Shown here piece by piece: positions 22,276 through 51,733 of a stretch of 64,000 nt of DNA. Below the pieces are notes generated by a model. The model saw only the letters and a list, made by a program, of their open reading frames with translations, was not told the DNA's origin and searched no databases. This stretch comes from Anaerolineaceae bacterium. GTDB lineage: Bacteria; Chloroflexota; Anaerolineae; Aggregatilineales; Phototrophicaceae. Where the stretch lies: contig REDR01000123.1 in assembly GCA_007693385.1 (NCBI GenBank), positions 186,001 through 250,000 on the forward strand, read 5' to 3'. The stretch's first letter is position 1; the number at the start of each line of letters is the position of its first letter. The position numbers and the translations under genes are program-made.

Positions 22276-22614
22276 ATGTTAGAGATTGCCGTTTCCGATG
22301 TAGAGAATGTGAAGATTGTAGCCGCGAACGGACGCATTGATAGTATGTCTGCCGGAAAACTCGCGGGGGCGCTCTCCGGTGCAATAACGGGGAGTGGGGC
22401 GAATATCGTACTGGACTTGAGCGCTGTGGATTATATGAGTAGCGCAGGGCTACGGGAGATTGTGGCCGCGTTAAAACAAGCAAAACGTGCATCGGGGGAT
22501 TTGCGCGTTGTGCGGCCATCGCCGCGTGTGATGGAGGTCTTCGAGATGGCTGGATTGGATACGATCATCCGCATCTTCCCAACGCAAAATGAGGCGACCA
22601 GTAGTTACCTGTAA
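22276..22614 (+). CDS. STAS-domain anti-anti-sigma factor (RsbV/SpoIIAA-like)
   Basis: 112 residues, essentially one STAS domain. IVLDLSAVDYMSSAGLREIV contains the phospho-acceptor Ser in SSAGL. In partner switching the unphosphorylated form sequesters an anti-sigma kinase. The kinase candidate is encoded 56 bp downstream (22671), so this is a cognate pair. It is related in sequence to the STAS protein at 8175. No sigma factor gene is adjacent. Confidence 0.9.
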   Translation: MLEIAVSDVENVKIVAANGRIDSMSAGKLAGALSGAITGSGANIVLDLSAVDYMSSAGLREIVAALKQAKRASGDLRVVRPSPRVMEVFEMAGLDTIIRIFPTQNEATSSYL

Positions 22615-22670
22615 TTCATTGTCCGTGTATTGCGGCCAACATCGGCACAACTTCGGGGAAGGGAGGTGTC

Positions 22671-23087
22671 ATGACGGCGGAGCAGAAGTATCTTATATCT
22701 ATTGTCGCCGCGCTGGAAAATATCGAAACAGTGTGCGGATTCGTCGCCAGCATCGCTAACAAAGCGGGCTTGAATGCTGAGCGCGTCCACCATTTCTATC
22801 TATCGACAGAAGAGATATGCACCAATATCATCGAACACGGTTACGTTCATCCCAGTGGCGAGATAAAAGTCATCTGCCGTATTCTGACGGATCGCTTCAT
22901 GGTCACGATTATCGACCAAGCGCCGCCGTTTAATCCACTGCAACATGCCGACCCTGATCCCTTAACGCCACTGAATGAACGACGAAATGGCGGTTGGGGC
23001 ATCTTCTTCGTCAAGCAATATATCGAACAGATCACCTATGGCTATGCAGAAGGAGAAAATCGGTTGACGCTAACCGGATGGCGCTAA
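22671..23087 (+). CDS. Anti-sigma factor Ser/Thr kinase (RsbW-like, HATPase_c)
   Basis: 138 residues with a GHKL ATP-binding domain. The N-box is STEEICTNIIEHGY. The G1 box is VTIIDQAPPFNP, and the G2 box is GGWGIFFVKQYIEQITY. The size and motifs match RsbW/SpoIIAB-type kinases that bind sigma factors and phosphorylate STAS proteins. It follows the STAS gene at 22276. Its TAA overlaps the stop of the convergent serine hydrolase gene by 4 bp. Confidence 0.88.
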   Translation: MTAEQKYLISIVAALENIETVCGFVASIANKAGLNAERVHHFYLSTEEICTNIIEHGYVHPSGEIKVICRILTDRFMVTIIDQAPPFNPLQHADPDPLTPLNERRNGGWGIFFVKQYIEQITYGYAEGENRLTLTGWR

Positions 23088-24709
23088 TCGCGTCGCCATG
23101 CGTTGATGTCATCCAGATTAACCTGTCCATACGGTGGACGATAACCATGCACCACGCAATCGCGCCCCTGTTCAGGTAAATCGCGCCTGTCGATCAAAGC
23201 GGAATCCGGATTGAAGTGATTCCATGTGGCGCGGCTGATGTCTTCTAGTAACGGCCATAAGCGCTCAAAGCCGACTTGCGTCGCATCTTCGCGGTTGCTA
23301 TCCGCCCACAAAAACACAGAAATCACGTAATCGTGCCCATTCGGTGAGAACACGATCCCCGCGTTACTGACGACTGCCTGTGTATTCAGCCAGCCATTTT
23401 TATGTGAGATGGTCACATCTTCGGGAATGCCGCCCTGTAGCAGGCGCTCAAGATCATTGGCGCTCATCAAATTCAGCATACGCTGGCAACTCTGACGGGT
23501 GAATGCGCCATCATCAAATGCAGTCATTAAGCCACTGCCGTACTGGGCGCAATCATAGATCATGCCTAATAATGTGCCTATGTCTTCCGCAGTGGACTGG
23601 TTGAAGCGATCAGGGCGTGTGTTGAATGCCGGATTCGGTGCGGTGGCTGGTACCGCAATTGAGCCGAGTTCACGTCCGGATTCTTCAAACGGGGCGGACA
23701 AGAACGAATTCAAAGCACCGGCGCGTTGCATGGTGCGCGTAACACTGGCGATGCCGTTGAAGATGTTGCCGCCACCGATCACCTCCATCAACACATTCGA
23801 CGAACTATTCTCACTGCACAGCATCGAGTTCGCCAGCAACCACGCATCATCTTGCGTCGGCTCCGATGTGAGATAGCGGAAGTAGTCAATCATGATGGCG
23901 AGTTTTTGTGTACTAGCCGACGAGAAAGCAACATCGCTGAGGATGTGCATTTCTTCGCCGGTGCGTAAATCCATCACGAAGACACCGGCGGTAGTGTCTT
24001 CCCCGTCGTATATGAAGCCCTGCGCGTCCAGATAATCGATGATAAGTTGCCGTAAAGTATCAAGCGAAGGGCGCGTCGAATCCGATGCGCTGATAGGCAG
24101 AACAACAGTCCGTTGATTCGGGGCACGGATGGCGGCGTCGATCATATCCAGTGCGCGGGGGATATCTAATGTCGCACCACGCTCACCGATGAACGTAGTC
24201 AGCGTGCCGACATCGTAGCTAGCGTTGCCGGATGGTTGATCGTAGCGCATGGCGATGTCGTCGAGGAAGTTACGCAACAGATTACGCTGGTAATCACCGG
24301 TCAAGGGGATATTGGCGGTTTGCGGCTGTAATTCCTGTTGCGCTAGATGGTTGAAAAAGCGCACCCAGAAGCTACCACCGGCATCGGTTAACCCAAGCGC
24401 GGCAGTGACCATGACTTCCGCATTAGCGCGAAAACCGACTGATGATGGGTCTAGCACGATGGGGCTATCACCATAATATAACGTGATCGGTTGTGAGAAC
24501 GTGCGCTGTAAGGTGGTGCGAGCCTCTGTGCCGGTCATGCCGCCGATGTTGACACCACCGGCCACCACATAGGATGGCACGCGGTCAGTCTGCTGGCTGA
24601 ACGCCATCAACTCACGCACGAATAGCCCGATAGATGCCACGAAAAAAAGCGCAGAAATGAGCTTTAGATTAGGAATGATGCGTATTCTACGGCGAGTACG
24701 TCTTCTCAT
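23084..24709 (-). CDS. Membrane-anchored class A beta-lactamase-like serine hydrolase with peptidoglycan-binding-4 domain
   Basis: 541 residues. A basic N-terminus and a transmembrane helix at about 15-37 export or anchor it. Residues about 45-140 resemble the PG_binding_4 domain often found before VanW (TLQRTFSQPITLYYG). The C-terminal half is a beta-lactamase-fold hydrolase: SxxK as S266-TQ-K269, an SSN loop in CSENSSSNV, and SHKNGW as the KTG equivalent. This suggests a cell-wall serine peptidase or esterase rather than a resistance enzyme. It overlaps the upstream Nudix gene by 23 bp. Confidence 0.8.
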   Translation of the reverse strand: MRRRTRRRIRIIPNLKLISALFFVASIGLFVRELMAFSQQTDRVPSYVVAGGVNIGGMTGTEARTTLQRTFSQPITLYYGDSPIVLDPSSVGFRANAEVMVTAALGLTDAGGSFWVRFFNHLAQQELQPQTANIPLTGDYQRNLLRNFLDDIAMRYDQPSGNASYDVGTLTTFIGERGATLDIPRALDMIDAAIRAPNQRTVVLPISASDSTRPSLDTLRQLIIDYLDAQGFIYDGEDTTAGVFVMDLRTGEEMHILSDVAFSSASTQKLAIMIDYFRYLTSEPTQDDAWLLANSMLCSENSSSNVLMEVIGGGNIFNGIASVTRTMQRAGALNSFLSAPFEESGRELGSIAVPATAPNPAFNTRPDRFNQSTAEDIGTLLGMIYDCAQYGSGLMTAFDDGAFTRQSCQRMLNLMSANDLERLLQGGIPEDVTISHKNGWLNTQAVVSNAGIVFSPNGHDYVISVFLWADSNREDATQVGFERLWPLLEDISRATWNHFNPDSALIDRRDLPEQGRDCVVHGYRPPYGQVNLDDINAWRRD

Positions 24710-25220
24710 CGGTAGGTTGAACCTTTAATAGTGTTGCGGCGTGCCGGATGGCATCGCGGTGGAACGGCAGTACCGGCGGCATGTCGTCGGGAGCAAACCA
24801 GCCATAGTCGAGTAGCTCATAGCTCAATTGCCCGACGGAGGCATCTTGCGCTTTACAGAGGATGGCAACATCTAAGTGATTTTGATATACAATGCCGATC
24901 ATGATGACCTGTTGCGCGGTCACGTCAATCTGTAGTTCTTCTCTCAGTTCGCGCTCGACAGTTTTTTCGGGGTGTTCGTGCCGGTCTGACCAACCACCGG
25001 GCAAACCCCAGGGTGTGTGCGGATGAAAGGCATGTTCAACCAGCAAAACTTGTCCCTGCGCGTTGAAAAGTACGCCGACTGCGCCCATCGAATATTTGGG
25101 GCGAAAGAAACGATACACCCGATAGGGGACGATCATCAGCCATGGCCGCCGCCGCAAGATTTTTGAGATACGATTAACCAATATGTCCTCAATCCGGCGA
25201 AGTGATTCGACCGATAACAT
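24687..25220 (-). CDS. Nudix hydrolase
   Basis: 177 residues. The Nudix box fits G-x5-E-x7-R-E-U-x-E-E, reading GWSDRHE, HPEKTVE, RELREELQI; only the final Gly before the last aliphatic residue is replaced by Gln. LLVEHAFHPHTPWGLPGGW precedes it. Family members hydrolyse nucleoside-diphosphate-linked compounds. The exact substrate is unknown. It overlaps the serine hydrolase gene by 23 bp, so the two are co-transcribed. The N-terminal ~50 residues (helical, basic) are outside the Nudix fold. Confidence 0.88.
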   Translation of the reverse strand: MLSVESLRRIEDILVNRISKILRRRPWLMIVPYRVYRFFRPKYSMGAVGVLFNAQGQVLLVEHAFHPHTPWGLPGGWSDRHEHPEKTVERELREELQIDVTAQQVIMIGIVYQNHLDVAILCKAQDASVGQLSYELLDYGWFAPDDMPPVLPFHRDAIRHAATLLKVQPTDEKTYSP

Positions 25221-25370: not shown

Positions 25371-28300
25371 TTGTCGATACCAACCGATTTCATGCAACTA
25401 TTCGTGCAAACACCGGGTCAGACGATTTACTTCGTACTGTTCCTGTTGCTTTGTTGCGGCGCTTTTTTGATGATCGCCACTCACCGCAGTAACCGCGTGA
25501 CGATACGCCGCTATCGTGTGGCGTTGGGTGTCGTCTGTGGTGCATGGCTGATTATTCTCGGCGGAGCGGTGATCGCTACACGTCTCGATTTGCTACTAGA
25601 TGATTTGTTGCCGATGTTAGAAGTGCTGATTACGCTATTGACGCTGATCGTGATTGGCTGGTCTTTTGCGGTTGTACCACCCCGACAAATGATTGCACAC
25701 GCTTTTACGTTAATCGCCGCGTTATTGGTCATCGTCGCGGTGGCTTACGCTGGCGCGGGTTGGTTGAGCGATCCGTCACCGGTATTTGTGGAAAGTCATT
25801 ACGCGCTGTGGTGGTTTGGAGTCGGCTTAAGTTTGAGCGTGGGCTTGCTGGTATGGACAGCTACAACCCTGCGCGATTCGTTCGACATGCCATTAAAAGT
25901 GGTGGCGCTTACGATATTGGCGATAGCGTACGCCGCCGGATTCATCAATGGGATCAGTGGCGTCGTCTCGATCAATAATTTAGGCCTGTTACGTCTGGCT
26001 TATGTTGCTTTCACGATGGTGGTCACGGTTCTGGTCTATCGCAGTATCGTGCGCGATCTCAAAGAAATCGCGACCACCCCGCCACCGGAAAGCCCGCCGT
26101 CGCCTACATCACAGCCCACACAAACACGCGCCGAACCGGTGTTGACAGCTGTTGAGCGCGAGTCCGTGCAGTTGATGCGGGCGCTGGGGATTATGCTGGA
26201 AGGTGCCGAGCCGCGAACGATCCCCAAGCAAATTTTTCAAGCGGTGGTCGATGTATTGCGCGTGGATGTTGTAGTGTTGTTACACACGAAAGATGCGAAT
26301 TACGCCGATGTGCAGGACGGTCATGATCGTTTTATGTCTCGTGATATTGCCGGTATGTCGATTAACTTGAATGACCAGCCACATCTAGCCAGTTGCATCA
26401 CCGGACGCGAACAAGTCGCCCTGAAGCTAGAAGAACATGAAGATGAATTGCAGGATTTATACACGCGATTGGACATTGACGCTATCGGGCCGACCTATCT
26501 TCAGCCAATGTATGATGAGGATGAACTGATCGGCGTGTTGCTGGTCGGCTTACCTTATTCCCAGCGCGAACTGGCACGTAGCGAAGAAGGTCTTCTGCGC
26601 GGCATCGGCGTGATGGCGGCTAATTTGCTACGACTGAGTTATGCGGCACTGGACGCTCAGCAGGTGGCACAGGAACGCGCCGTCCATGCCATGATGAATC
26701 GCGTCTCGTTGAATCAGGTTGATGAATCATCGGTACTACGCACGCGCCACGACTTGCAAGAAAATTTGCGTGCGGCTCGCGGTCAAATCGGTGAATTAGG
26801 TCAGCAAGTACTTGACCTAAAACGGAAACTCGAACAGGAACGGGGGCGAATCGTCAATAGTCTTGGCGGCGCGGAAGAAACGCTCAGCGCGTCACAACAG
26901 ATCACCACGCTTGATGATGAATTGGAGCAATTGCGCTTAGAACGTGACGCGGTGGCCGCGCGATTGCAGGAAGCACAAGCGGCGTTACGCGGTACAGTCA
27001 GCAAAGATGACTTGATTGTTTATCATGAAATGTTAGAAACATTACAGACTGAACGTGACGATCTGCTGATCCAGCGCGACACACTACAAACCGAACTCGA
27101 ATCCCTGCGCGGGCAAAGCGGCGAGTTATCACATCCGGCAGATATTGAGAAGATGTTAGGGCGGATGCAGGCGGAAGCCGAACGGTTGACCGGTAGCAAC
27201 GAGACATTGCGACAAAAGCTAGCGCAAGTCTACCAGAAATTACGCACCGTCGGCTTTGATGCTGAGAAGGACGGACTCAGCAGTTTGATTCAGCATTTAA
27301 GCGATGAACGCGATGATCTGATCGCCGACAACGAAGCGCTACAACGGGCGCTCACACAGCTTGAGGGCGAGCCAGCATCCGCCCCTGATGAGCGCTTGCA
27401 GATGCTACAGATGACGCTACATAATGTTGCGGCAGATCGCGAGGCGGCACTCAAACAACGCGATAGACTGCGCCGCGATATGAACAACATGCGCGAGAAA
27501 TTGCATGTTTTACGTCTGCGCTGGAAAGAACTCGAAGGAGAGTCACGTCAATCGCGGGCGAAGGCCGCCGCACTACAGGAAGAAAAGACTATCTTGCGGG
27601 CGGAAATCCTGCGCTTGAACAACGAGCGCAGTAATCTGGTCAACGTCCGTGACCGCTTGCTGGCCGAACGTCAGGCGTTGGAAACGGAACGCGAGCAATT
27701 GCTGGCGCGAATAGACGGTGATCGTTCGCGGGTGGAATCAATGAGCGAGGCCGGAGTCGGATCGCTGACGCAGATGATCCGTGATTTGAGTGAGCAACGG
27801 GAGGCGCTGGAAGTCGAATTAAACGAAGTGCGGCAAAATCTGGCTAACACACGCGAAGAACTGGAACGCGCCCGCCCACAAGCGCCCCTCACAACGTCGG
27901 AGCGCACATACCCGCCGCAAGATGCCGACTTATTGCTTGGGATCGTGCAAGAGTTCCGCACGCCGATGACCAGCATTGTCGGTTATGTCGATTTGTTGCT
28001 CAGCGAATCAGCCGGTATTCTGGGTGAGATGCAACGGAAATTCCTGCAACGTGTACATACTAACGTACAAAGATTAGAAACGATGCTGGATGACTTCATC
28101 CGCGTGACGGAGATCGATACAGGCACGTTTGATCTGCTTCCCGCGCCGGTCAATGTCACAGCATTAATCGAAGATGCAATCACGCAGAGCGCCAACCGCT
28201 TCCGCGAAAAAGAATTGACCGTGAGCCTGATGATTGAGAATGATTTACCCTCCGTCTATGCCGACAAAGACGCACTGACGCAGGTCATCACACAACTCAT

Positions 28301-28649
28301 CACAAATGCCTATCTGGTATCGCCGCCTGATAGCGAGATTGTGATGCGCGTAGAATATCGCAAAGGCGCGGCATTCGATGGTTACGTCGCTGATGCGCTG
28401 TGTTTCTCCGTTAAAGATCGTGGCGGTGGCATCGCACCGGATGATGAGCCGCGTGTCTTTTCACGCAAGTACCGCGCCGATAACGCGCTGATTCAAGGGC
28501 TGGGCGATACCGGCGTCGGATTATCTGTTGCGCGAGCATTGACACAGGCGCAAGGTGGTCGGCTGTGGTTGGAGACTGAGTTGGGCATCGGCACACAGTT
28601 CAGCTTTATGTTGCCGCTATCGACAGCAGGCGAGAGGCAGGTGATTTAA
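25371..28649 (+). CDS. Multi-TM sensor protein with GAF domain, long coiled coil and His-less histidine kinase module
   Basis: 1092 residues starting at a TTG with CAGGGAG upstream. About seven transmembrane helices (17-225) are followed by a Pro-rich linker, a GAF domain (about 265-420) and a very long coiled coil (about 435-880). A HisKA/HATPase unit closes the protein. The H-box reads IVQEFRTPMTSIVGY: the phospho-accepting His is Gln860 (CAA at 27948). The ATP-binding boxes are kept (ITNAYLVSP, DRGGGI, GDTGVGLSVARAL). So it may bind ATP but cannot autophosphorylate in the usual way. It overlaps the next gene by one base. Confidence 0.85.
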   Translation: MSIPTDFMQLFVQTPGQTIYFVLFLLLCCGAFLMIATHRSNRVTIRRYRVALGVVCGAWLIILGGAVIATRLDLLLDDLLPMLEVLITLLTLIVIGWSFAVVPPRQMIAHAFTLIAALLVIVAVAYAGAGWLSDPSPVFVESHYALWWFGVGLSLSVGLLVWTATTLRDSFDMPLKVVALTILAIAYAAGFINGISGVVSINNLGLLRLAYVAFTMVVTVLVYRSIVRDLKEIATTPPPESPPSPTSQPTQTRAEPVLTAVERESVQLMRALGIMLEGAEPRTIPKQIFQAVVDVLRVDVVVLLHTKDANYADVQDGHDRFMSRDIAGMSINLNDQPHLASCITGREQVALKLEEHEDELQDLYTRLDIDAIGPTYLQPMYDEDELIGVLLVGLPYSQRELARSEEGLLRGIGVMAANLLRLSYAALDAQQVAQERAVHAMMNRVSLNQVDESSVLRTRHDLQENLRAARGQIGELGQQVLDLKRKLEQERGRIVNSLGGAEETLSASQQITTLDDELEQLRLERDAVAARLQEAQAALRGTVSKDDLIVYHEMLETLQTERDDLLIQRDTLQTELESLRGQSGELSHPADIEKMLGRMQAEAERLTGSNETLRQKLAQVYQKLRTVGFDAEKDGLSSLIQHLSDERDDLIADNEALQRALTQLEGEPASAPDERLQMLQMTLHNVAADREAALKQRDRLRRDMNNMREKLHVLRLRWKELEGESRQSRAKAAALQEEKTILRAEILRLNNERSNLVNVRDRLLAERQALETEREQLLARIDGDRSRVESMSEAGVGSLTQMIRDLSEQREALEVELNEVRQNLANTREELERARPQAPLTTSERTYPPQDADLLLGIVQEFRTPMTSIVGYVDLLLSESAGILGEMQRKFLQRVHTNVQRLETMLDDFIRVTEIDTGTFDLLPAPVNVTALIEDAITQSANRFREKELTVSLMIENDLPSVYADKDALTQVITQLITNAYLVSPPDSEIVMRVEYRKGAAFDGYVADALCFSVKDRGGGIAPDDEPRVFSRKYRADNALIQGLGDTGVGLSVARALTQAQGGRLWLETELGIGTQFSFMLPLSTAGERQVI

Positions 28650-29671
28650 TGCGCCGCGATTTTGGGAATGAGATGCTAGCCGCCGGAACAATTATCGTCG
28701 TTTTGATGGCGGCGATGACTTTTGGCGTGCTGTTGTCATCAATGGCTGATGACGGCGAGTCAACTATCACCGCGACTCCGGTACTCGTCGGTGATGCTCC
28801 CACCGCAGAAGCAACGCCAACACCGCACAAAACGGCCACCCATACCGAACACGCGACAACAGCCGATGCACCGACGGTCACACAGACGCCAACGGATGCC
28901 CCGTCCGCCACCATCACGCCAACGCACACACAGGCGGTTCCAACCGTTGCCGCATCGACTACCACACGAACACCGTCGGCTACCGTCACGATACCACCAA
29001 CCAATACGCCACCGCCACCGATACGCACCGTGCGCGGGCCAGCCGTCACCATCCCCCCACGCCCATCGATAACGCCTGCACCACCGCGTTCGACTTCACC
29101 GCCGGATTTCGATCTGGGGATCGTCTCGACGCCTTCGCCAGTATTTACCGCGACACCGACAGCCTGCACACCGCCTGCGGGTTGGTTAGCGTATGAGGTG
29201 GAATCAGGCGTCACGCTGTTCATGATTGCGCTACAAGTCGGGCGTCCGGTTGCTGTTTTACAGGATGCTAACTGCCTGCGTGATGCTGATCGCATCGACG
29301 CGGGACAGGTCATTTACGTGCCGCGTTTACCCGCCGGTTTAGACGTTAGACGCGAAGTGCAAGGTTGCAACAATCCTGACATCACGATCACGTCCCCGCG
29401 CCCGAATCAGCGCTTTAGCCGGTCTTTCGACGTGATCGGCACGGTTGATCCGCCGCTTTTTGGTTATTTTAATCTGGAAATTCGGGCAGATGAAGCCGAC
29501 GGATATAACTTCCTCTCGCGCTCTGATGATGTGGTGCGTGATGGTTTGTTGGGGCGAATTGATGCGTCTCTGTTCACAGATGGCCGCTACTGGGTTCGCG
29601 TGGTGATGGTCGATGCAACTGGCAACGTGCCCGCCAATGCCTCCTGCGCCATACCGATCACACTGGATTAA
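28649..29671 (+). CDS. Membrane-anchored LysM protein with Thr/Pro-rich stalk
   Basis: 340 residues. A TM helix at about 10-30 is followed by a Thr/Pro/Ala-rich stalk (about 35-165). A LysM domain follows (about 175-225, LAYEVESGVTLFMIALQVG to GQVIYVPRLP), which binds peptidoglycan. An Ig-like beta domain (about 240-340) has ITITSPRPNQRFSRSFDVIGT. It is translationally coupled to the sensor kinase by a TAATG overlap. It probably reaches from the membrane to the wall. Confidence 0.82.
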   Translation: MRRDFGNEMLAAGTIIVVLMAAMTFGVLLSSMADDGESTITATPVLVGDAPTAEATPTPHKTATHTEHATTADAPTVTQTPTDAPSATITPTHTQAVPTVAASTTTRTPSATVTIPPTNTPPPPIRTVRGPAVTIPPRPSITPAPPRSTSPPDFDLGIVSTPSPVFTATPTACTPPAGWLAYEVESGVTLFMIALQVGRPVAVLQDANCLRDADRIDAGQVIYVPRLPAGLDVRREVQGCNNPDITITSPRPNQRFSRSFDVIGTVDPPLFGYFNLEIRADEADGYNFLSRSDDVVRDGLLGRIDASLFTDGRYWVRVVMVDATGNVPANASCAIPITLD

Positions 29672-29721: not shown

Positions 29722-29750
29722 CTGACAGTCTGAGAAGTCGTGGAGTGTTT

Positions 29751-31667
29751 ATGCTACGTGCGTCTGCTCGCCTCATTACGGGTGTTTTTCGGCTGGTCAC
29801 ATTGCGGGTAATTCCACTTATGTTGATCGGTGGTATATTGTGGTCTGGCTATCAAGTCGCAGAGGCGGTTGTGCGCCAGCTTGACGAGCGCAACGAATAT
29901 GAATCGCGGCGTCCGATGTTCGTCGGCACCGCTACCACCATCGCCCAACTGATGCCATCAGCCACGCCACCAGCATCAGCGACGCCGACAGTGACCATCA
30001 CGGCATCGCCAACCACCCCGCCGCCGACGGCGACGGCTACCGTTACGCCTTCTGATATACCGCCGAGCGCGACACCAACCGCGAACACTGTCGCGCAGGC
30101 GTCAACCATTCAGCCACCGATCAGCCAGCAAGCTGTTTTCGCTACGAATACGCCGCGTCCGGTCATGTTTTCCACGAATACACCCGTCGGCTTCAGTCCT
30201 ACGGATGAGCCACAACCGGAACCCACCAACACAGCAACCCACACTGCAACCGTCACCGCTACCGCGACGGCTACGCAAACAGCGACAGTTACCGCCACCG
30301 CATCGGTTACACAAACGGCAACCGCTACCGTTACACCATCACCGACGGCTGAGCCAACCGATACCAGTACGCCCGCCGCCGATCCGACGCCGGAGATCGG
30401 CGAACTGTCCCCCTTACCAACGCCGCTTCTACCGCGCAGTGTTGAGCCGGGGACAGTCATTAACGGCATTGAAGTGCCGGAAGCAGTGCCGCTAGTACCG
30501 CGAGACTACAATCTCGTGAACGTCATCCTGCTGGGTGAGGATGCCGAGTTGTATGGAGATGGTTATTCGCTGACCGACACGATGATCGTCGTCTCCGTTA
30601 ACCGCGATACCGGCACGGTGAACATGCTCAGTTTCCCGCGTGATCTGTATGTGTACATCCCGACGACAAACGGCCTGATGGGGCGGTTGAATATCACTTA
30701 CGGATTAGGAGAGGCTATTGGTTGGACGGGCGGCGGATTCGGCTTGTTGCGCCAGACGTTCTTCTACAATTTCGGCATTAACTTGCATTATTATGCCAAG
30801 GTCGATTTCAGTGGCTTCAGCGAAATTGTCGATTTGTTGGGTGGCGTTGATATTGCGGTGGATTGCGCTTATGAAGATTATCGCATCATCGGCGCGGAGT
30901 TGCCGGACGGAGCGCGACGCTCAACCGACGACGGCCTGTATGTAGTCGATGTCGGCTATTATGAAATGAGTGGGGCGCAGGCGCTATGGTATGCGCGGAC
31001 GCGCCGCACCAGTTCTGACTTTGATCGTGGCCGTCGCCAACAGCAATTGCTACGGGCGATGTGGCGAAAAGCACGCGATGTTATCAACCTGACCAACGTC
31101 ACCAATTTCTGGTCGCAGACCAATGATGTACTAGAAACCGACATGGCTTTTAATGACGTGCTGGGTCTGGTGCCGTTGATGCTCAATCTGGATTTCAACC
31201 GCATTGAAAGCTATGTGTTCATTCGCACTTACCACACAACACCGATCACGGTTGACGGCGCGAATGTGCAGGCGATCAATCCGGTAGAAGTGCGACAACT
31301 GATGGAAGACTTCTACCGGCCACCATCAGAGACGCAGTTATCGCAGTTAGATGCAACCGTGCATGTTTATAACGGCACGTCTAACGATTTCTGGGATCGC
31401 GTGGCGGCGGAACGCCTGCAATGGGAAGGCTTCTTCGGTGTCGCATCCGGCCAATATGAAACCGACGACATCACGCAGACCATCATCATCGACAACACCG
31501 GCCAGCAAAAGGGCAGTAGCCTCAATGAACTGGTGCGGTTACTCAACGTCAGGCCGGAAAACGTCCGCATCGAACCGGACGCCGCCCGTGACAGTGATTT
31601 CACCGTAATATTGGGTACGGATTACAATTCGTGTGATGTGGGCGGTGTGCTGGAAGTCAACAGGTAG
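29751..31667 (+). CDS. LytR-CpsA-Psr (LCP) family wall-polymer transferase with LytR_C domain
   Basis: 638 residues from the ATG at 29751; GTGGAG 6 bp ahead decides against the GTG at 29745. A short cytoplasmic part and one TM helix (about 12-36) precede a Thr/Pro/Ala-rich stalk (about 55-215). The LCP catalytic domain (about 250-440) has NVILLGEDAE, SLTDTMIVVSVN, SFPRDLYVYIP and RTRRTSSDFDRGRRQQ with the conserved Arg/Asp residues. A LytR_C domain (about 530-638, ATVHVYNGTS) ends it. LCP enzymes attach anionic glycopolymers to peptidoglycan outside the membrane. Confidence 0.92.
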   Translation: MLRASARLITGVFRLVTLRVIPLMLIGGILWSGYQVAEAVVRQLDERNEYESRRPMFVGTATTIAQLMPSATPPASATPTVTITASPTTPPPTATATVTPSDIPPSATPTANTVAQASTIQPPISQQAVFATNTPRPVMFSTNTPVGFSPTDEPQPEPTNTATHTATVTATATATQTATVTATASVTQTATATVTPSPTAEPTDTSTPAADPTPEIGELSPLPTPLLPRSVEPGTVINGIEVPEAVPLVPRDYNLVNVILLGEDAELYGDGYSLTDTMIVVSVNRDTGTVNMLSFPRDLYVYIPTTNGLMGRLNITYGLGEAIGWTGGGFGLLRQTFFYNFGINLHYYAKVDFSGFSEIVDLLGGVDIAVDCAYEDYRIIGAELPDGARRSTDDGLYVVDVGYYEMSGAQALWYARTRRTSSDFDRGRRQQQLLRAMWRKARDVINLTNVTNFWSQTNDVLETDMAFNDVLGLVPLMLNLDFNRIESYVFIRTYHTTPITVDGANVQAINPVEVRQLMEDFYRPPSETQLSQLDATVHVYNGTSNDFWDRVAAERLQWEGFFGVASGQYETDDITQTIIIDNTGQQKGSSLNELVRLLNVRPENVRIEPDAARDSDFTVILGTDYNSCDVGGVLEVNR

Positions 31668-49048: not shown

Positions 49049-50101
49049 TCATATGTTAATGGCTTTAAGTGTGAAATAGAAGACGCTTCCGTTATCCGGT
49101 TTGCTACAGACCTGAATGACGCTATCGTGATGTTTCAATATCAAACGTACGATGGTCAGTCCAATACCTGCGCCTTCGTATTTGCGTGTTGAGGATGCAT
49201 CCACCTGAAAGAACATATCGAAGATCGATTCTATGTTGGCCGGATCAATGCCGATACCCTGATCGCTAACCGCGATTCGCACACAATCATCCTGTGACGT
49301 AACGCTGAGCGTCACTTCGCCCTCACTGAACTTGAGCGCATTGTCGATCAGTAATTCGATAACCGTACTCAATCCCTGTTTATCGGCCATTACCGGCGGG
49401 GTATCCTCATCATAACAGGTGACAATCCGCGATAATGCGCCCTGATAACGCCATGCACGATTGATGTTACGCTTGACGTAATCGATCACATCGCGCACGA
49501 TAACCGGGCCGAGATTAGCCTCGAATGTATTGCCGAGTAGGGTGATGTTCTTGACCAGAGCTTCCAAACGCGCCATAGAGTTCTTGGCGTAGGAGATCAA
49601 CTCCGGATTGTCACTATCCTCGGACATCAACGAAACCGCTGACTTGACCTGCAATACCGGCGTGCGTAGTTCGTGTGATACATTGCGGATGATAGCACTT
49701 TTGAGCAACTCAATTTCTACTTGACTGTTATTGAGCGACTGGTGCAGTTTTTCAGTCTCCTGTTGCAATGTCGCACTTTGATCGCGCAAGCGCAGGATGG
49801 CGCGTAATTGACGCCGTACATAATTCAAACTAGGGGGAAAGATAAAGTCGGCGGTTTTGCTGGAGATCGTCTCGTATTGAGACGTGATGAGTACATATAA
49901 CTTGTTCTGACCGAAAGTATGCCTCAGTCGTTGAACGATGGCAGGGTCGCAGGCGATGATAACCTGCGCGTTTTTTATCAACTGGTTATCCATGCGCGTG
50001 TCAGCATCAAAGAAGGCGACGCTATATCCATCATCCCTCAGCGCTTTGAGAAGCGTCCTGATCCATTTGGGTCTCATGCTTGTGTGTGTCACGGTTCTCA
50101 T
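49049..50101 (-). CDS. Cytoplasmic sensor histidine kinase with degenerate receiver-like N-terminus
   Basis: About 350 residues from the ATG at 50101 (a GTG is 6 bp upstream; neither has a strong site). Residues about 12-110 look like a receiver-type fold that lacks clear phospho-Asp residues. A coiled coil follows (110-140). The HisKA H-box is NVSHELRTPVLQVKS with His near 143. The HATPase has ELLIDNALKFSEG, VSDQGIGIDP and YEGAGIGLTIVRLIL. No TM segment. No response regulator is adjacent, so it is an orphan in this window. Confidence 0.85.
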   Translation of the reverse strand: MRTVTHTSMRPKWIRTLLKALRDDGYSVAFFDADTRMDNQLIKNAQVIIACDPAIVQRLRHTFGQNKLYVLITSQYETISSKTADFIFPPSLNYVRRQLRAILRLRDQSATLQQETEKLHQSLNNSQVEIELLKSAIIRNVSHELRTPVLQVKSAVSLMSEDSDNPELISYAKNSMARLEALVKNITLLGNTFEANLGPVIVRDVIDYVKRNINRAWRYQGALSRIVTCYDEDTPPVMADKQGLSTVIELLIDNALKFSEGEVTLSVTSQDDCVRIAVSDQGIGIDPANIESIFDMFFQVDASSTRKYEGAGIGLTIVRLILKHHDSVIQVCSKPDNGSVFYFTLKAINI

Positions 50102-50205
50102 CTTCACTTGAATGTCGTCTCAAATGGTATCTTAGCACACGCTTATATCTACACAAAGTTATGTTGTAAAACTCGAACGAACCCGAAATGATTCGTACAC
50201 GTTGT

Positions 50206-51369
50206 TCATTCACACTTGCCGATAGTCTGGCATAGTTGTTCGATGTGTAAGCGGTCATGCTGGGCGGTGAATTGCGCCATCTCCAGCAGATTCGTCGGTC
50301 CGAATATGCTGTGACGCGCCGGACGCTTCCAGTGTTCGGGCTGTATGGTATTGATAAACGTGATCGTGCGTTCGCGTTCATCTGCCCATTGATGCGCTAA
50401 CTGCTCGCCTTTCTGCGACGCGCAATCGAATTCATGCGGTGGCGGTGGCGGCTGTGGTTGTGCCAGAAAAGGGTTATCCTCGTCGAGTATCTTCTGTAAA
50501 CGCATTCGCTGGACGGTGGTTTCGCTTTCCAGTAGATGGCTGATGATCTGTATCGGCGACCATTCATCAGGCTCCGGTTGTTGATGCCAATAACGCGGTT
50601 TTATCTCGCTGATAATGCCGAATAACGCGCCGATATTGCCGCGATATTGCGGTACAATCATGTGAGATTGTGCCGCAAGAGGCAACATCCCCTCGAATCG
50701 GTGTTCTGACATCTGCCCGATGAAAAGCTCGATTGTGTTATCTCCGGCCAGATGAAAAGCGCCTGCGCCAATGGTGCGTGCTGGCGAGATGTCATTGTCG
50801 ATTCTGTCACCGATGACAATGACTTCATCCGGTTCAACGCCGATGCGGGCGATTACTTCTGCATAGTAGGGCAGATCAGGCTTGGCGTAGTGCATGTTAT
50901 CGGCATGGGTGATGAAATGAAATAATGGCATCATATCGCCCAATCCGCCCCATTCTAACCGGTTAATGACGGCTTCTAACGGGTAGATAGGGTTGGTGGC
51001 GATAACCAGTGTATAACCGGCATCTGATAATGATTCAATTAGATACGCCGCGTCATCTCTTGGCGTGACAAGTGACTTCAGTTGCGGATATTCTTCAGCG
51101 TAGAATATCGCTAATCCGGCAGTGATGGCATCTATAGTGTACTGAGTTTTCTGAGCGATATTATCGCATAAGCGTCTCATGTTGGACTGCCTGCCGCATG
51201 AATGCGCCCGCATCTTCCTGAGTGCATCACGGTATATCAAGCTGAAAGCTTCGATCTGGAAATATCGCTTGCCGAAAGAATCCATGCGTTGTAAGAACGC
51301 ATGGGTGGCAACCCTGTCATCGTTGAATATGAGGGTATTGTCGAGATCAAGCAGGACGGCTTTAATCAT
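50206..51369 (-). CDS. HAD-family hydrolase fused to a DinB-like domain
   Basis: 387 residues. Residues 1-230 are a HAD phosphatase: motif I LLDLDNTL (Asp8, Asp10), motif II ATNP, motif III Lys in AKPD, motif IV GDRIDNDI. Residues about 235-387 are a DinB/YfiT-like four-helix domain with His in IISHLLESE and TAQHDRLHIEQL as probable metal ligands. The start is the ATG at 51369; the longer frame overlaps the neighbour. It overlaps the upstream Cys-rich gene by 8 bp. Function unknown; phosphatase activity on a small molecule is likely. Confidence 0.8.
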   Translation of the reverse strand: MIKAVLLDLDNTLIFNDDRVATHAFLQRMDSFGKRYFQIEAFSLIYRDALRKMRAHSCGRQSNMRRLCDNIAQKTQYTIDAITAGLAIFYAEEYPQLKSLVTPRDDAAYLIESLSDAGYTLVIATNPIYPLEAVINRLEWGGLGDMMPLFHFITHADNMHYAKPDLPYYAEVIARIGVEPDEVIVIGDRIDNDISPARTIGAGAFHLAGDNTIELFIGQMSEHRFEGMLPLAAQSHMIVPQYRGNIGALFGIISEIKPRYWHQQPEPDEWSPIQIISHLLESETTVQRMRLQKILDEDNPFLAQPQPPPPPHEFDCASQKGEQLAHQWADERERTITFINTIQPEHWKRPARHSIFGPTNLLEMAQFTAQHDRLHIEQLCQTIGKCE

Positions 51370-51733
51370 TGTCGGTGTCTGGCTTATCGTTTTCCAGAGC
51401 TTGACGAAACAGATCAAGCCCTGGCCGTTCCTCGATGTCTTTGGGGCATCCTACATACGGGTCTTCGATAGGAATGTTGTGCTTTATGCAGTGAGCGCTA
51501 ACTTCTAATTTGCGTCCGAAGCCCATGAATCGCGTTGTGATGGTCAGCTTGAGGCGCATATACGGGCTGGCATTGGCATTGAGGATGTCGGGAACGGGGC
51601 ATTTGGCGCAATCTTCGGGACGCCAGCGAAATGAATCTGGATTGCCTTTGACGAGCCGACACTCTTGTATGTTGCGCCCTCTATGATAATCCTCAAAATA
51701 ATGTTTGCACTCTCTACCATCTGGTGTACGCAT
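51362..51733 (-). CDS. Conserved-looking cysteine-rich protein, unknown function
   Basis: 123 residues with six Cys: RECKHYF, QECRLVKGN, EDCAKCPVPD, AHCIKHN and VGCPKDIEE. The CxxC-like spacing suggests metal or cluster binding, possibly zinc. No family recognised. It overlaps the HAD-DinB gene by 8 bp, so they are translated together. It sits 25 bp after the DinG gene stop region on the same strand. Not a fragment: it has clear start and stop and no internal break. Confidence 0.65.
   Translation of the reverse strand: MRTPDGRECKHYFEDYHRGRNIQECRLVKGNPDSFRWRPEDCAKCPVPDILNANASPYMRLKLTITTRFMGFGRKLEVSAHCIKHNIPIEDPYVGCPKDIEERPGLDLFRQALENDKPDTDND

Follow-up and report, generated by a model that had tools for sequence, protein, structure and literature searches.

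A class-wide family of pseudo-histidine kinases with an intact ATP site and a cell-envelope gene neighbourhood in Chloroflexota

Pseudo-histidine kinases are, as a kind, already known, from a few cases of which DivL is the model. Homologues of DivL carry a conserved tyrosine (in one instance an alanine) at the site of the phospho-accepting histidine and bind the phosphorylated receiver DivK~P, as described in PMC4211667. RetS, according to PMC5992135, cannot autophosphorylate and dephosphorylates a partner receiver by means of an HExxT motif (T428), RocA is presented as a pseudokinase working via CovS (PMC7028121), and the archaeal RdmS, which has no H-box, is reported to bind and hydrolyse ATP, a partner having been suggested as its target (PMC11784639). 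In CovS, the kinase activity requires E281 and the phosphatase activity T284 (PMC7028121), and the phosphatase motif proposed for HisKA proteins is E/DxxT/N (PMC11502775). This report describes a gene of this kind, located at 25371..28649 on the + strand of a 64,000-nucleotide stretch (the window) of contig REDR01000123.1 from an Anaerolineaceae bacterium (Chloroflexota, class Anaerolineae). Its predicted product has the catalytic frame of a histidine kinase and glutamine where the acceptor histidine is expected, and is probably a membrane sensor that controls the signal of another protein rather than sending its own.

The family to which this protein belongs is spread over many families within a single bacterial class, retains the full ATP site and includes natural histidine-bearing members nested among those with glutamine, so that both the role of an acceptor-less ATP site and the loss or regain of kinase function by a single-codon change become testable. 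It also represents a candidate cell-envelope sensor for Chloroflexota, a phylum in which, to our knowledge, cell-wall regulation is poorly studied. No description of a family with this combination (class-wide glutamine, intact ATP site, seven transmembrane helices followed by GAF and a long coil, LysM partner) was found in searches of open-licence PMC papers. Of two reports set aside, PMC6748860 is irrelevant, its missing histidine lying in the photosensory part, and PMC9491836 describes a frameshifted kinase in which the histidine is retained.

The acceptor site and its history

The gene product (1092 residues, TTG start) matches the Pfam families HisKA (PF00512, residues 853-918, 27927..28124 on the + strand; 43.8 bits versus a cut-off of 26.9) and HATPase_c (PF02518, residues 965-1084, 28263..28622, +; 71.3 bits versus 26.4), the two domains that define a HisKA-type histidine kinase. 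Residue 860, encoded by CAA at 27948..27950 (+), is glutamine, and alignment of the family profile with solved kinases places this column at the histidine of the SHELRTP box in VicK/WalK, HK853 and GacS, in agreement with the original prediction, which had read glutamine in place of histidine in the H-box. The phospho-accepting histidine of a HisKA autokinase is therefore absent, Gln860 standing in its position. A shifted acceptor was ruled out, as none of the 93 family rows without histidine at the site has one within six residues of it. In the same genome the protein has 54 matching stretches. Sequence collected around nearly all of these gave 61 aligned rows, with histidine in 56, a gap in three, glutamate in one (L132, a short partial match that is not an H-box) and glutamine in the window protein only.

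Apart from the window genome, 38 of 40 relatives carry the gene (best E-values 1.4e-271 to 7.1e-71; G010 and G018 are the two without it), and a further 54 loci were collected from named public genomes, nearly all labelled Chloroflexota or its classes. The two labelled otherwise, L054 (Pleurocapsa minor) and L061 (Bacteroidetes), are contigs with the Chloroflexota gene and its usual neighbours and are probably mislabelled or contaminated records. Among 80 C-terminal sequences, residue 860 is glutamine in 66, asparagine in eight, histidine in four, glutamate in one and arginine in one. A set of 100 de-duplicated family rows, in which each group of near copies (>93% identity and same residue) is represented once and to which relatives were added after searching 150 genomes from the class (56 matched at E <= 1e-65), has Gln 79, His 7, Asn 5, Glu 3, Ser 3 and Arg 3. 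Larger tallies (130 rows >200 bits) count some proteins again through truncated copies and were not used for proportions. Histidine is present in all 56 HisKA proteins of the same loci that do not belong to the family.

The acceptor has thus given way to another residue that is itself conserved throughout the family, as expected of a pseudo-histidine kinase. The original prediction had called for a check of orthologues and regarded histidine-bearing ones as evidence of a single-strain mutation; such orthologues are a small minority (4/80 and 7/100), and a single-strain mutation or an assembly error is ruled out by the relatives with glutamine together with the tree described below. One member, L094 (5819-9214), has arginine at the site, a disrupted H-box (RNLYAP) and a long branch, and is possibly a degenerating copy. 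A search across the phylum gave a match in 22 of 201 genomes, 17 of the 22 being of the same class, window genome included. The newly found loci of that class (L202-L213) have glutamine in 12 of 12 and those of another class (L214-L216, family code f70) histidine in three of three, which makes the glutamine form a trait belonging, as far as sampled, to this Chloroflexota class.

The history of the site was examined on two trees, the counts of which rest on one C-terminal alignment. In a quick tree of 116 rows residue 860 needs 15 changes; in a more careful tree of 106 of these rows, from which L177, L094, L199 and seven outgroup rows were omitted for their long branches, it needs 13, or seven when only histidine versus any other residue is scored. 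The family forms a clade of 94 rows (support 100/99), of which 78 have Gln, five His, five Asn, three Glu, two Ser and one Arg. The histidine-bearing member L039 (codon CAC) is nested with two glutamine-bearing members (100/97 and 100/96), and forbidding regain of histidine raises the count to 21 independent losses, compared with seven changes in total at equal costs. Codons seen at the site are CAA/CAG, AAC and CAC/CAT; the glutamine and asparagine codons are each one base away from histidine, so regain is mutationally easy, and the nesting of some histidine members among glutamine members suggests early loss with occasional regain. The pattern is accordingly read as loss of the histidine near the base of the family followed by few regains, the place of the first loss being inferential because the careful tree gives weak support to deep family nodes (e.g., 30/0, 57/72). 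With 15 changes against 20.5 for the median column of the family the site is moderately constrained, and in the 60-row clade holding the order to which the window belongs (the window's order) it needs four against a median of 12.

The ATP site and the domain architecture

The original prediction held that the ATP-binding G boxes remain, and this is borne out by the family: N979, D1016, G1018, G1020, F1030, G1043, G1045 and G1063 show no variation across the 79 glutamine rows, nor do A980 and Y872, so that the N, G1, F and G2 boxes of the catalytic and ATP-binding (CA) domain, the HATPase_c match given above, are intact. Since every residue of the ATP site is kept, unlike in a decayed kinase, nucleotide binding probably matters. 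The ExxT motif from Glu861 to Thr864 (27951..27962, +), which combines the acid required by kinases with the residue of transmitter phosphatases, conforms to the E/DxxT/N pattern (E861-F-R-T864); position 861 is E/D in 78 of 79 glutamine rows, and the phosphatase position 864 is threonine in 70 and glutamine in nine of the 79. Within L183, L185, L186, L188, L189 and L202-L210 (family code f32) the motif reads QELRQP, with glutamine at both the acceptor and the phosphatase positions. Several positions of the dimerization and histidine phosphotransfer (DHp) domain that are variable in other kinases are near-fixed in the 100 rows (E879 in 94, G882 in 99, Q888 in 99, F891 in 97, R894 in 95 and R901 in 93), which fits the expectation for a kept docking surface.

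The AlphaFold2 model of residues 836-1092, built on orthologue alignments, shows a two-helix DHp hairpin and a CA domain (mean predicted local distance difference test score, pLDDT, 83.6) with residue 860 on the first of the DHp helices, and its top Foldseek matches include ZraS, HK853-RR468, DivL and RetS. That of residues 1-445, obtained likewise, shows seven helices followed by a GAF fold (mean pLDDT 84.8); no solved relatives of this part were found by sequence. The membrane region (residues 16-235, 25416..26075, +) is predicted to contain transmembrane helices at 16-36, 43-71, 76-99, 104-128, 143-166, 173-195 and 202-235, and hydropathy gives the same count of seven peaks. The GAF domain (residues 260-442, 26148..26696, +) was not detected by Pfam in the window protein itself; its predicted structure matches GAF domains, Pfam detects GAF in relatives, and the stretch of residues 263-425 is 162-163 residues long in orthologues. 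It is followed by a coiled coil of about 420 residues (426-845, 26646..27905, +) with a hydrophobic period of 3.54, matched by one of 300 shuffles. The length of the coil is kept (415-434 residues in 26 of 28 orthologues) at a mean identity to the window protein of just 36%, and would correspond to about 60 nm if it formed one continuous helix pair, though it may be bent at prolines 589, 668 and 672. The seven transmembrane helices, the GAF domain and the coil of more than 400 residues in the original prediction are therefore all confirmed. In sister groups the coil is shorter and a PAS domain precedes HisKA.

Gene neighbourhood and the cell envelope

The stop codon TAA of the kinase gene shares one base with the ATG of the next gene (TAATG), which encodes a LysM protein (28649..29671, +; PF01476) with an N-terminal membrane anchor and a Pro/Thr-rich linker. 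An open reading frame similar to this partner immediately follows the kinase-like gene in 67 of 83 members, these being the members of the 100 with enough sequence (the other 17 had <900 bases downstream) and their loci not being fully independent. Next is an LCP (LytR-CpsA-Psr) glycopolymer transferase with a LytR_C domain (29745..31667, +; PF03816, PF13399): in the window's order, LysM and then LCP genes occur in 24 loci besides that of the window, LCP usually being the next gene. Upstream and divergent, also conserved in the order, are a Nudix hydrolase (24687..25220, -; PF00293), which is not considered a component of the receptor, and a Beta-lactamase2/PG_binding_4 protein (23084..24709, -; PF13354, PF12229). 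Among sister groups, L072 has a MurJ flippase and a sortase nearby and L091 an SLT transglycosylase. The neighbourhood is that of the cell envelope throughout, and the link to the wall that had been proposed from the sequence, through the operon with LysM and LCP genes, is supported.

A partner kinase, for which the original prediction had suggested looking, was not found as a co-conserved neighbour. An adjacent one as a general rule was rejected: kinases are near in some Anaerolineales-type loci and in L077 and L078, and unseen in the window's order, where the survey looked for relatives of the window's own neighbours. Both L077 (3895-10387) and L078 (4441-10871) have three kinases in a row and a family member with histidine; the row in L077 consists of a cNMP-binding histidine kinase, a GAF-PAS histidine kinase and then the family member.

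The window has three further features. At 22276-23087 a STAS domain protein precedes a HATPase_c_2 (anti-sigma-type) kinase; the two make up a partner-switching pair that recurs 2-3 kb upstream of the pseudokinase in many loci of the order. About 20 kb downstream (49049-50107, -), adjoining a polyprenyl synthetase gene, is another, small HisKA-HATPase kinase. A single open reading frame at 50206-51417 fuses a HAD-type hydrolase to a DinB domain, which looks uncommon.

Possible outputs and comparison with known systems

Lacking the acceptor histidine, the protein should not autophosphorylate, and the invariant ATP site together with the kept ExxT motif suggests that its output is active and gated by nucleotide and that it is not simply a passive scaffold. 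Of the pseudokinase scaffold or allosteric regulator originally envisaged, the pseudokinase and regulator part therefore stands, on the family-wide glutamine, the lack of any substitute histidine and the strictly kept ATP site; the scaffold is not specifically supported. We tentatively favour a non-autophosphorylating, ATP-binding envelope receptor that acts on the phosphorylated receiver of a partner, most likely as a dedicated phosphatase. As judged from sequence, loss of the histidine with retention of ExxT and the ATP site agrees best with a one-way phosphatase under the control of nucleotide and of the membrane input, less well with DivL-like sensing and, in third place, with a trans-acting kinase; as no response-regulator partner was found, the choice among the three is a matter of inference.

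The receptor would be built on a histidine-kinase frame and very probably incapable of autophosphorylation. Its seven-helix and GAF input, probably together with the co-made, wall-binding LysM protein, would determine which state is adopted by a long parallel coiled coil ending in the DHp-CA module, which, to judge by the invariance of the ATP site, would be gated by ATP on the intact CA domain. The DHp surface would then dock the phosphorylated receiver of a response regulator, itself phosphorylated by another kinase, and with ExxT kept and the histidine gone the module would act as a dedicated transmitter phosphatase lowering the phosphorylation of that regulator, this being the least certain step. 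Glutamine and asparagine act as catalytic residues in the receiver phosphatases CheZ, CheX and NarX, a likeness that is suggestive only. In a more speculative and rather doubtful extension, loss of the histidine in these class-wide receptors would have left a formerly bifunctional kinase/phosphatase working one way only, as an ATP-gated phosphatase for phospho-receivers on a coil of about 60 nm, the amide of Gln or Asn sharing in catalysis or mimicking neutral histidine, and lineages that regained histidine may have regained kinase activity, making a natural, reversible switch tied to the wall.

Several observations weigh against a phosphatase. Site 860 is not strictly an amide, as Ser, Glu, Arg and His were also found in the 100 rows, and it changes faster (15 changes) than E861 (9), R863 (2) and T864 (6). 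Glu861, a kinase residue, is kept though a pure phosphatase has no obvious need of it. Pfam detected no response regulator among the neighbours scanned, which were chosen genes around L072, L074, L076, L077, L078, L083, L086, L091 and L187 plus ten window proteins. Finally DivL, the best-studied family with a replaced histidine, is described as stabilising DivK~P without kinase or phosphatase activity (PMC4211667).

In a possible, if less probable, alternative the DHp-CA module would bind a phosphorylated receiver and leave it unchanged, thereby informing another kinase or sequestering the receiver, with glutamine merely blocking phosphotransfer. The conserved DHp surface and the family-wide residue other than histidine are consistent with such a reverse sensor, and DivL (4q20) comes up both in the best fold matches (ranks 9-10) and in the best profile matches. 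ATP binding by DivL is however reported as weak (57 uM; PMC4211667) as opposed to the invariant ATP-site residues found here, and no partner kinase adjoins the gene in the window's order. It is unlikely that the protein is instead a trans-acting kinase which lacks its own acceptor alone and phosphorylates, through its intact CA domain, the histidine of another kinase's DHp domain or of another protein. The invariant ATP site, the kept Glu861, the precedent of RdmS, the histidine-bearing kinases about 3-4 kb downstream in the Anaerolineales-type loci L084, L087, L090 and L091 and the two directly upstream in L077 would suit it, but a coil of about 420 residues with kept length probably favours homodimers and makes mixed dimers harder, and the window's order shows no kinase neighbour within the survey described above. 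More improbable still is an inhibitor or activator that, like RetS or RocA, binds a canonical kinase through the DHp domain or the membrane segments: the kinase regions of RetS rank near the top by TM-score (0.70-0.73) and RocA offers a precedent, but no co-conserved partner kinase was found. That the protein is a kinase decaying as constraint relaxes, or the result of a local mutation or of an error in assembly, is very improbable in spite of the tolerance of Q, N, S, E and R at the site, given the gene's presence in nearly all relatives, the prevalence of glutamine, the invariant ATP site and a site slower than the median column, and is refuted for the window's order.

The family can be compared with several described systems. 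WalK and PnpS, which are true autokinases, provide the closest NCBIfam models for the catalytic part among the matches listed, and WalK shares the cell-wall theme; the window protein is far under their cut-offs (PnpS, 134 versus 400; WalK, NF033092, 122.9 versus 725), and none of the 25 NCBIfam models among these matches passes its own. RetS of Pseudomonas has a sensor with seven transmembrane helices. It is likewise a membrane kinase-like protein with no autokinase activity, an ExxT phosphatase motif (PMC5992135) and high fold similarity, but keeps its histidine and has a degenerate HATPase and fused receiver domains, whereas the window family has lost the histidine, retains an intact ATP site and shows no receiver domain in Pfam, and so falls outside the RetS family. 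RocA of group A Streptococcus is also a membrane pseudokinase that regulates another sensor kinase, with the difference that its own histidine is reported as replaceable without effect and its partner, CovS, is known (PMC7028121). RdmS/MsmS of Methanosarcina (MA_type 2) likewise has no acceptor histidine, binds and hydrolyses ATP, and is described as cytosolic with the H-box wholly absent (PMC11784639), while the box of the window family is intact except for the histidine. DivL, from Caulobacter and other alphaproteobacteria, shares the HisKA-HATPase frame and a family-wide replacement of the histidine (Tyr550) and differs, in the account of PMC4211667, in its PAS domains, tyrosine, weak ATP binding and DivK/CckA cell-cycle path. 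With glutamine and a seven-helix-GAF architecture in place of the tyrosine and PAS domains of a DivL orthologue, the window family is set apart from DivL by its order of transmembrane region, GAF domain and coiled coil, its glutamine, its intact ATP site and its LysM neighbour.
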